From the NCBI GenBank assembly GCA_013349405.1, contig DUZS01000004.1:1-64000 (forward strand): a DNA stretch of 64,000 nucleotides, written 5' to 3'. The position numbers and the translations under genes are program-made. The notes beneath the pieces were generated by a model. It saw only the letters and a list, made by a program, of their open reading frames with translations. It was not told the DNA's origin and ran no database searches. Below are positions 1-2,811 of the stretch, in pieces (positions within the stretch are counted from its first letter, which is position 1; the number at the start of each line of letters is the position of its first letter). This stretch comes from Desulfuromonadales bacterium (GTDB lineage Bacteria; Desulfobacterota; Desulfuromonadia; Geobacterales; Pseudopelobacteraceae).

Positions 1-1
1 G

Positions 2-118
2 GCCAAGGTAATCAGTCACCGGGCCTATGGATTCAGAACGGCAAAAAACTTCATTCTCAACTTGTATCACTGCATGGGCGATCTAACCATGCCAACTACT
101 TTGCACAGGTTTGTGTGA
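2..118 (+). pseudogene. C-terminal end of an IS transposase (ISL3-like), cut by the window edge
   Basis: The frame from base 2 is open for 38 codons and ends in TGA at 116-118. It contains a HRAYGFRTAKNF stretch followed by a short Leu/Tyr/His-rich tail. The K-R-x-A-Y-G-F-R-x-x-x-N-F pattern is typical of the last catalytic block of ISL3-type DDE transposases. Only the tail is visible, so it cannot be told whether the element is intact. No obvious terminal inverted repeat follows; there is only a 13-base palindrome (CCTTATAATAAGG, about 123-135) before the next gene. The family call is from a short motif. Confidence 0.5.
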
Positions 119-148
119 GGAACCTTATAATAAGGAGCGAGCGTATTT

Positions 149-958
149 ATGACTGGTTATATAATGCTATTTTTTACTGTTTTGCTCGCATCTTGCAGCA
201 TTTTATACGCATCTGATTGTTATATGATTGAATATCCTGAAAAAATCGACCTTATTTGTAACGGATTACAAAAGGACAAAACCCAAAAAGATATACCAGT
301 ATACAGACCGTCACAGCCTGCTGTAGCTCAAATTGAAGCCCCCAAACCATCAGTAAATGCTTGTAAAATGCTTCAGGCAAACCATTACGATATTGCAAAA
401 AACTCAATAGTTGATGTTGAAATAAGTTGCAGTGTAACAGGACAAAAATCAGAACAGGTTGAGTTTTTACTATACGGACTAAATGGGAATAATGAGCGTT
501 TACTTACAACAGTGATTATTGGACAGCTTGATAATTTTGGCTTTGGAGATTTAAAAAAAACATTTGGTGCTGAATTCTCAAAATTTATAAATGTTCATAG
601 ATGGGAGCCAGATACCATAGGTGGGACGATACTAATGTCCAAAAAGTATTTGTATAATGAGACGGAAACAATAGCTCGTGCTGTACAAATAAAAAATGTA
701 TTCGAAGATTGGGAAAAACAAGCAACTACTGCTAATTTATCAACACCATCTGGTGATAATGTTTTACGTGCCTCAATGGGGTCGGTTACATTTAAACACT
801 CTACGCATTCCAGCGAATCATGTTCATCTTGTCATACAGGATCTACGCAAGCCAGAATTCCAGAACTTAGCAAGGACTGGGCACACAAGACCTGTAAGGG
901 TTGCCATACTGAAAGTAAACGTGGTCCAACAGGCTGTAAGGATTGTCATAAAAAATGA
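149..958 (+). CDS. Secreted triheme cytochrome c7-like protein with an unknown N-terminal region
   Basis: The product has 269 residues. Residues 1-21 look like a signal peptide, so it is probably periplasmic. The last ~67 residues are a triheme cytochrome c7 domain of the PpcA type. Three CXXCH sites lie at 225-229, 249-253 and 263-267, and the distal histidines H217, H220 and H246 fall where PpcA has its bis-His ligands. The spacing around CKGCH and GPTGCKDCHKK is almost that of Geobacter PpcA. PpcA-family proteins carry electrons across the periplasm. Residues ~22-200 are not recognised; they include three cysteines and no heme motif. A full-length PpcA is only ~70 residues, so this is a fusion or a new architecture. 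The gene is clearly more AT-rich than the genes after 2992. The ATG follows AAGGAG at 132-137; an in-frame ATG at 164 is an alternative start. Confidence 0.8.
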   Translation: MTGYIMLFFTVLLASCSILYASDCYMIEYPEKIDLICNGLQKDKTQKDIPVYRPSQPAVAQIEAPKPSVNACKMLQANHYDIAKNSIVDVEISCSVTGQKSEQVEFLLYGLNGNNERLLTTVIIGQLDNFGFGDLKKTFGAEFSKFINVHRWEPDTIGGTILMSKKYLYNETETIARAVQIKNVFEDWEKQATTANLSTPSGDNVLRASMGSVTFKHSTHSSESCSSCHTGSTQARIPELSKDWAHKTCKGCHTESKRGPTGCKDCHKK

Positions 959-1635: not shown

Positions 1636-2811
1636 ATGAAATTCGAACAGCTACTGACTCTCTTTCATGGTACTCACTTGGAGTTGCAAAAACGGGCCGC
1701 CCGATCTGTTGATATTGCGCTGGTAATTAGAAATTGGCTGTTCGGTTACTACATTGTAGAGTTTGAACAAGGCAATGCCAACCGCGCTGAATTGTACGGG
1801 AAACGGCTAATAGAGCGGCTTTCCAAGGAACTAACTGCTGCACAATTGGGGCGGGGATTTTCAAAGCGTTCACTGGAACAGTATCGCCGCTTCTACGATT
1901 CATACAAAGAGATTGCGCAGGTACTGCCTGCGCAATCTTTGGAGAACAATCTTGCACGGCAGGAGATTGGTCAGGCACTGACTGGCGAATCTTTTGAGAC
2001 TTTTGCTGCAAATTTAGAAGTTTTGCAGGCAGTGTCCACCGAATTGACAAAACGATTCGTTCTTGGCTGGACACACTATGTCTCGCTGCTCACCATTTCA
2101 AGCCCTGACGAACGTAGCTTCTACGAAATTGAAGCGTATGAAAATAGTTGGGGAACCCGTGAACTGGAACGCCAGATTGCCTCATCACTTTATGAACGAT
2201 TGACATTAAGTCGTGACAAAGCAGAGGTAAAAAAGCTTTCGCAAAAGGGACTTGTTATTGAGAAACCTTCCGATGTAGTAAAAAATCCATATGTACTTGA
2301 ATTTTTGGATTTGGATGAAAAAAGTGGTTATTCAGAACACGAACTGGAGTCCGCTATCATTGACAAGCTGGAACACTTTCTGCTGGAATTGGGAAAAGGT
2401 TTTCTGTTTGAAGCACGACAGAAACGCTTCACATTTGATAATGATCATTTTTATGTGGATCTGGTATTTTACAACCGTCTGCTGCGTTGCTATGTCCTTA
2501 TTGATCTGAAACGCGACAAATTGACCCATCAGGATTTGGGGCAGATGCAGATGTATGTCAACTACTTTGACCGCTTTGTCAAAACCGATGACGAGCTGCC
2601 CACTATCGGAATTGTGCTTTGTCACCGCAAAAACGATGCTCTGGTCGAAGTAACCCTGCCTAAAGACTCAAACATCTTCGCATCAAAATATCAACTCTAT
2701 CTGCCATCCAAAGAAGAATTTAAAAAACAGTTGGAATACGCTGCCGGGATTGAACATAAAGATGATATGGGGCCACATCAGAACGATCCTTGGCAAAATA
2801 AAGGACATTGA
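1636..2811 (+). CDS. YhcG/DUF1016-type PDDEXK nuclease family protein
   Basis: This 391-residue protein has the two-part layout of the YhcG (DUF1016) family. An N-terminal helical domain contains the family-like pieces RGFSKRSLEQYRRFY and LGWTHYVSLL. A C-terminal PDDEXK nuclease fold has catalytic-type residues D275 (in FYVDLVFYN) and D290-x-K292 (in VLIDLK). Family members are predicted DNA nucleases often found with restriction or defence genes and mobile DNA; the biological role is not settled. Nothing obviously paired with it is seen here. The start is an ATG preceded by AAAAAAGGAACG. An intragenic 12-bp palindrome (1910-1938) inserts a Leu/Gln-rich segment in the linker before the LGWTHY block. 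Base composition is lower in GC than the genes after 2992, fitting an acquired gene. Confidence 0.87.
   Translation: MKFEQLLTLFHGTHLELQKRAARSVDIALVIRNWLFGYYIVEFEQGNANRAELYGKRLIERLSKELTAAQLGRGFSKRSLEQYRRFYDSYKEIAQVLPAQSLENNLARQEIGQALTGESFETFAANLEVLQAVSTELTKRFVLGWTHYVSLLTISSPDERSFYEIEAYENSWGTRELERQIASSLYERLTLSRDKAEVKKLSQKGLVIEKPSDVVKNPYVLEFLDLDEKSGYSEHELESAIIDKLEHFLLELGKGFLFEARQKRFTFDNDHFYVDLVFYNRLLRCYVLIDLKRDKLTHQDLGQMQMYVNYFDRFVKTDDELPTIGIVLCHRKNDALVEVTLPKDSNIFASKYQLYLPSKEEFKKQLEYAAGIEHKDDMGPHQNDPWQNKGH

Follow-up and report, generated by a model that had tools for sequence, protein, structure and literature searches.

Introduction

Triheme cytochromes of the Ppc type, small electron carriers with which relatives of Geobacter respire metals, are generally viewed as minimal, freely moving shuttles of the periplasm, so that an attachment-like region joined to one of them would depart from the accepted picture. 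In one account these proteins are termed "peptide-minimized", with ~9-10 kDa for three hemes (PMC12977616); another describes CbcL as a nine-heme periplasmic domain combined with a membrane b-type domain (PMC9129911). In CbcL and in the multidomain c7 polymers of Geobacter sulfurreducens the partner is represented by additional heme units or by a membrane cytochrome. Here, we describe a gene in which a c7 domain follows a heme-free exported module and a middle domain. It lies at the beginning of the analysed stretch of DNA (64,000 nucleotides, hereafter the window), the first position of which is base 1 of contig C4 in a genome (G000) of 3.43 Mb assembled in 60 contigs. With PpcA-E of Geobacter its product shares three CXXCH motifs, three distal histidines, their spacing and the end of the domain, but it differs in ~180 extra residues before the domain and scores 77.2 bits against a family cutoff of 120. 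Two other kinds of proteins come close from another side. Within the same order, small exported proteins whose genes lie close to those of multicopper oxidases likewise carry a signal peptide followed directly by a two-Cys module. Unlike the c7 domain of the window protein, the C-terminal parts of these proteins, for the most part charged or rich in Pro/Ala/Gln, have no heme motif listed. Their large multicopper-oxidase-like neighbours may be compared with OmpB and OmpC, putative copper-binding oxidoreductases, a tentative likeness based on Cu-oxidase_2 in the one example scanned whole. Neither the fusion nor the module was met in titles or abstract beginnings of open-licence papers among the matches listed; a term search gave 0 uses of "fusion" or "fused" in PMC12977616, and passages of PMC8833165 and PMC2700814 have no bearing on the fusion.

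Organization of the gene and its predicted product

The gene (window 149-958, forward strand) starts with ATG and stays open through 269 codons with no stop inside; its parts are listed in Table 1. Its G+C content is 36.7% compared to 51.4% for the window, in agreement with the AT-rich character ascribed to it in an earlier note made on this DNA, and within the gene it amounts to 34.5% before the c7 part and 43.3% inside it. Residues 1-22, recognized by eye as a probable signal peptide, contain no K/R at the N-terminus and include a possible lipobox (LLAS-C16), which makes the type of cleavage ambiguous; as the N-terminal positive charge is absent, export should be regarded as likely rather than certain. 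The counterpart in a second genome (G018, see below) possesses an ordinary signal peptide containing K/R.

Table 1. Features of the cytochrome-fusion locus in window coordinates
Feature	Position	Strand	Basis
End of insertion-sequence-like repeat; frame end 2-115 (38 aa) resembling a transposase tail, candidate	1..124	+	Identical repeat copies
Probable ribosome-binding site AAGGAG of the cytochrome-fusion gene	132..137	+	Sequence
Whole gene, 269 aa	149..958	+	ORF reading; second full copy in G018
Probable signal peptide, residues 1-22	149..214	+	By eye from sequence
Two-Cys module, residues 24-39 (C24 ... C37-N-G39), perhaps a disulfide-closed beta-hairpin	218..265	+	Profile matches in class genomes; 32-row alignment
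Linker, residues 40-66	266..346	+	G018 copy differs in sequence and length
Middle domain, residues 67-191, perhaps beta-rich, Cys72/Cys94 conserved	347..721	+	46% gapless identity to G018
Short linker, residues 192-203	722..757	+	Comparison with G018 copy
PpcA-type triheme cytochrome c7 domain, residues 204-269	758..955	+	NCBIfam NF043011 E 1e-21, 77.2 bits; PDB c7 chains

The C-terminal part was assigned most firmly. CXXCH heme motifs begin at residues 225, 249 and 263, and none of 20000 shuffled versions of the protein contained three such motifs. Distal His 217, 220 and 246 align with those of cytochromes c7 in PDB and are kept in the G018 copy; the PDB c7 matches range from 3h4n (E 9.7e-16) down to PpcA itself (1os6, E 2e-11). 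The PpcA-type triheme domain proposed earlier is thus confirmed for residues 204-269 with complete predicted heme ligation, although the nine ligating positions counted at that time, all of which are indeed present, should read 12 residues (6 Cys and 6 His). Among curated models, NF043011 (CytC7_Geobact) is matched at E 1e-21, below its equivalog cutoff, and TmcA at 2e-9; in Pfam, Cytochrome_C7 scores 18.9 versus a cutoff of 24.8 and Cytochrom_CIII 23 versus 22.9. The mature length of ~247 residues, calculated after removal of the probable signal peptide, is at odds with the ~70 residues of a stand-alone PpcA-type c7. At least two further c7 genes are present in the same genome, and the other c7 locus found there (L002) has ~85% DNA identity to loci of an uncultured Geobacteraceae (L039) and a Desulfuromonadaceae (L042) genome, which places the host among the relatives of Geobacter. 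Judged by these sequence features, the gene very probably encodes an exported triheme carrier, which as a cytochrome is a variant of the Ppc type.

For the N-terminal part (approximately residues 22-204), no significant match was detected in Pfam, in PHROGs (best E 0.15) or, by means of a two-row profile, in PDB (best E 1.1), and when either this part or the full protein was compared with Pfam, NCBIfam, PHROGs and PDB, the c7 domain was the only significant match. None of the profile searches related the region to a known cytochrome domain; such a relationship would have spoken against the earlier reading. Structure prediction added little: single-sequence AlphaFold2 models were of low confidence, with pLDDT of 36.6 for residues 23-269 and 48.4 for residues 66-189. 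Foldseek with the latter model returned mostly antibody or nanobody chains among the 50 matches listed (E from 0.067 up, TM ~0.33-0.45), and these were not taken as evidence. The "unknown 180-residue secreted region" of the earlier note is probably exported and without a known family, as had been stated, but resolves into a two-Cys module with 46 other carriers, a linker and a domain of 125 residues.

Recurrence of the fusion and constraint on its parts

A search for the same pairing elsewhere revealed one further full copy, located in G018, the genome of a congeneric species, where a protein of 288 residues has the same order of parts and 39% identity overall. Both full copies are intact, and as two species share the pairing, the fusion is no accident of assembly. 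The middle domains are 46.4% identical over 125 positions with no gaps. Differences at the first, second and third codon positions come to 0.38, 0.30 and 0.62 in the middle domain and to 0.31, 0.29 and 0.60 in a c7 block of 45 codons (51.1% identity), so that, being concentrated mostly at third positions in both, they point to a similar degree of constraint on the two domains. Retained in both copies are the 12 heme-binding residues of c7 together with C24, C37, C72 and C94.

The distribution of the complete N-terminal part is narrow. A two-row profile of it matched 6 of the 277 genomes of the class at E<=0.01, full-length in G000 and G018 only; in the four other genomes and at a second place in G018 the match was confined to the first third of the profile. 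The middle domain alone was found in 2 of 395 genomes drawn from the phylum (G018 not included), namely G000 itself and G611, where the weak match (E 0.0069) to part of the domain was taken as chance; no relatives of the middle domain outside the fusion were found. Other weak genome matches of the fusion protein at E<=1, besides G018 and the module carriers, were set aside. A scan of named genomes that yielded 73 loci relied on exact matches to 8-residue peptides taken from the window protein and, owing to this requirement, would miss a fusion as divergent as that of G018. Among ORFs of at least 80 aa in these loci, residues 1-203 had no blastp match better than E 8, while a c7 ORF was present in 71 of the 73, with L109 and L110 having none in that list. 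Loci with more than 45 residues before c7 appeared to be stand-alone c7 genes with starts called too early, because each extension has its own signal peptide at its end.

The two-Cys module and its carriers

The module follows directly after the signal peptide and is defined as C-x12-C-x-G or C-x15-C-x-G in which the second Cys is preceded by an acidic residue; the window protein conforms to this definition and matches a 32-row profile, in which its own sequence is included, at E 1.7e-9. In the 32 rows chosen both cysteines are invariant, and the acidic position before the second Cys and the Gly after it are nearly so. With a six-row profile (E<=0.05) the module was detected in 42 of 277 class genomes and with the 32-row profile (E<=0.01) in 44, of which 43 belong to the window's own order, three of these 43 matches being weak (E 0.003-0.005). 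In the draw from the phylum it was found in 4 of 345 genomes, again all four from this order. These E-values are flattering, since both the window sequence and most of the carriers went into the profiles, and the informative part of the survey is the confinement to one order. A match in G264 (E 0.0066, 9 positions) was taken as chance. Within G000 the module was found in the fusion gene and nowhere else.

No curated family covered the module above cutoff when 10 other carriers were compared with Pfam and 7 with NCBIfam, bearing in mind that HMMER can miss a module of such short length; weak Pfam matches to the eukaryotic families CEP76_C, RIC3 and LIN37, all below cutoff and of low complexity, were rejected. 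The spacing of 12 or 15 residues between the cysteines would suit a disulfide-closed hairpin, and the low-confidence model of residues 23-269 also places two predicted strands in this region. In the libraries and literature searched the module is without description, and it represents a more general lead than the cytochrome variant.

Neighbourhoods were compared for 46 distinct carriers in the fetched loci (window excluded, G018 fusion included) using blastp at E<=1e-6, and neighbours were named by Pfam on chosen examples. A multicopper-oxidase-like ORF is present in the fetched stretch of 28 carriers, in 27 of these cases downstream and on the same strand. Since several carriers are nearly identical copies from related genomes, and since the oxidase locus has probably been passed on as a unit, the 28 cases are not independent. 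FKBP-type isomerase ORFs accompany 23 of the 46 (17 upstream and 6 downstream), an ORF joining cytochrome c to a periplasmic-binding-protein-like region lies near 9, and in 3 an ice-binding-like domain is part of the same ORF. For nine carriers, one of which is the G018 fusion, none of the four features tested was present; the flanks available for the carriers were often as short as ~1.3 kb. C-terminal parts of most carriers are low-complexity or charged. In the example of L222, Pfam identified Cu-oxidase_2 with FG-GAP repeats, SCO1-SenC, FKBP_C/FKBP_N and, below cutoff, Peripla_BP_6, whereas in L223 Peripla_BP_6 and Cytochrom_C are both above cutoff.

Two groups of ORFs met in this comparison are worth recording in their own right. 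In three genomes the module is followed by an ice-binding-like PF11999 domain at E 1e-72 or better (L156:1146-2288, L158:1107-2249 and L148:1450-2583). In three other loci an exported product combines one c-type heme motif with a periplasmic-binding-protein-like region (L223:968-2755, L222:1464-3149 and L237:1662-3356), an unusual-looking redox/binding fusion; these ORFs lie near module genes or multicopper oxidases, with Pfam run on L223 and L222 only.

Mobile-looking surroundings and origin of the fusion

Repeats adjoining the gene, noticed before, were confirmed on both sides. Window 1-124 is duplicated with 100% identity at G000:C32:38761-38884 and, at the very start of a contig, at G000:C5:3-126; a stretch of C2 resembles window 29-132 at 89%. 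We interpret positions 1-124 as the terminal part of an insertion sequence, with the assembly breaking at this point. Its frame end of 38 residues gave no Pfam or NCBIfam match and is likely a transposase tail. Downstream, two intergenic repeats at positions 990-1150 and 1300-1470 of the window are alike and contain a short palindrome (GGTGGGCA...TGCCCACC); other sites of the genome have partial copies of these repeats, one at C16 with 92% identity over 87 bases. Farther on, a gene for a YhcG/DUF1016-type PDDEXK nuclease (window 1636-2811) neighbours the fusion gene. The second fusion has a mobile-looking neighbourhood as well, in which an HNH endonuclease gene is located upstream and an MqsA-type antitoxin gene downstream (L119, G018:C97).

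A relative with a broken frame was encountered once. L109 (LaCa_MAG_21) is 88.4% identical to the G018 locus over 1115 bases from near the start of c7 onward, and there the end of an IS4-type transposase (L109:5446-6195) abuts the c7 part, leaving only c7. This transposase reaches 74.2 bits with its best NCBIfam model against a cutoff of 115, and DDE_Tnp_1 exceeds its Pfam cutoff. The N-terminal part was not detected at E<=1e-5 in the assembled stretches of the L109 genome, the three matches all belonging to the c7 end. Breakage in a related strain, which had been named beforehand as evidence against the earlier reading, therefore holds for this one case, while the two full copies are intact. 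Likewise, the supposed mobility is suggested by the insertion-sequence-like end, low G+C and patchy distribution, but transfer is not shown; plasmid and phage collections gave no match at E<=1, and two scans of viral contigs revealed no relative of the fusion.

The 24 bp between the insertion-sequence-like end and the start codon bring up the possibility that the insertion removed the native promoter. The gene may then be a stranded, silenced or decaying mobile element, its frame still open and yet unexpressed since the promoter was split from the ATG. Such an explanation would accommodate the short distance from the repeat end (124) to the ATG (149), the deviating G+C content, the occurrence of the full N-terminal part in only 2 of 277 class genomes and the transposase end lying against c7 in the relative of G018. 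It is hard to reconcile with 269 open codons, with the preservation of all heme ligands and with differences concentrated at third codon positions. The insertion may be recent, and outward-directed promoters can occur in insertion sequences. The promoter scan stayed at the level of chance: the hybrid candidate TGCACA-18-TATAAT (102-131) was rejected, as 4 sites were found where 3.8 are expected and as a start from it would probably cut off the ribosome-binding site. On balance we regard silencing or decay as rather unlikely.

The history of the fusion was approached by means of c7 trees built from 89 rows (identical domains merged, duplicate locus L009 out) and from 35 of these 89 (3 rows dropped, near-identical ones thinned). 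In both trees the c7 domains of the window and of G018 are placed apart, as would be the case if the tag and middle domain had captured two different c7 genes, and the modules of the two proteins also belong to different subtypes with 12 versus 15 residues between the cysteines. Nevertheless, both domains form long branches on 65-66 columns, and a tree with the two held together is not rejected (p-AU 0.171); we consider separate origins unlikely. Either a single fusion with subsequent fast change or replacement of the c7 part could account for the data.

Possible role of the fusion protein

Taken together, the data lead us to propose, tentatively, an exported electron carrier of three parts which is tethered rather than free. 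After export two pairs of cysteines would close as disulfides, the c7 domain would receive three hemes and exchange electrons in a PpcA-like manner, and the N-terminal parts would fix the cytochrome to a partner or place in the envelope, so that it would not diffuse freely as an ordinary Ppc protein does. The tethering function of the N-terminal parts is itself put forward with reserve. The case is weakened by the insertion near the start codon, by the single second copy and by poor structural models.

An ordinary free periplasmic Ppc shuttle with a passive N-terminal extension would agree with the typical c7 part of the protein and with the presence of no fewer than two further c7 genes in its genome. 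The middle domain, however, is about as constrained as the cytochrome, and a module common to otherwise unrelated exported proteins is unlikely for a passive extension, which makes this explanation quite improbable. A redox sensor or signalling receptor, its middle domain reading the state of the hemes, would give a meaning to an extra conserved domain beside a redox domain, but with no second membrane segment visible by eye and no output domain recognized by Pfam in the sequence it is very improbable, although a partner regulator may be encoded among the neighbouring genes, which were annotated in part. Of the "binding or sensing module" suggested earlier, sensing is thus without support, while binding or tethering would fit better.

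For the tethered carrier, the likeliest setting of its partner would be envelope or extracellular electron transfer, because the other module carriers are mostly located near large multicopper oxidases, FKBP isomerases and the cytochrome/periplasmic-binding protein. It is tempting to imagine the fusion as a carrier reaching an oxidase system in trans. Yet multicopper oxidases were not found on the contigs of either the window or the G018 fusion (the upstream side of the window ending at the contig end), with whole-genome matches located on C50 in G000 and on C63 and C111 in G018; it is consequently the module alone that connects the fusion to the oxidases, and a link of the fusion to multicopper-oxidase systems is considered unlikely at present. 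A broader and still more doubtful idea takes the module as an order-specific docking or address tag, a short N-terminal hairpin closed by a disulfide, which brings varied cargoes to one envelope partner, the fusion being an electron carrier wired into this scheme. Cargoes of the tag may then include accessory proteins of multicopper oxidases, ice-binding-like surface proteins and, rarely, a triheme cytochrome. Should the tethered reading be true, the protein would offer a natural example of a fixed triheme carrier and a handle on electron hand-over, and the module, with multicopper-oxidase loci at the centre of its distribution, gives a testable clue to what may be an accessory component of metal respiration.

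The genome of the window has one multicopper-oxidase locus, on G000:C50 (L237:3927-11279), whose ORF comprises 2450 residues. The small exported protein encoded before this oxidase is without the module. By eye, genes of the locus are similar to those for SCO1 and the cytochrome/binding protein in L222. The ORF of 2450 residues exceeds its two complete relatives (1060 and 1280 residues), others running off the fetched stretch, and between the SCO1-like gene and the cytochrome gene of the same contig an ORF of 316 aa is located.
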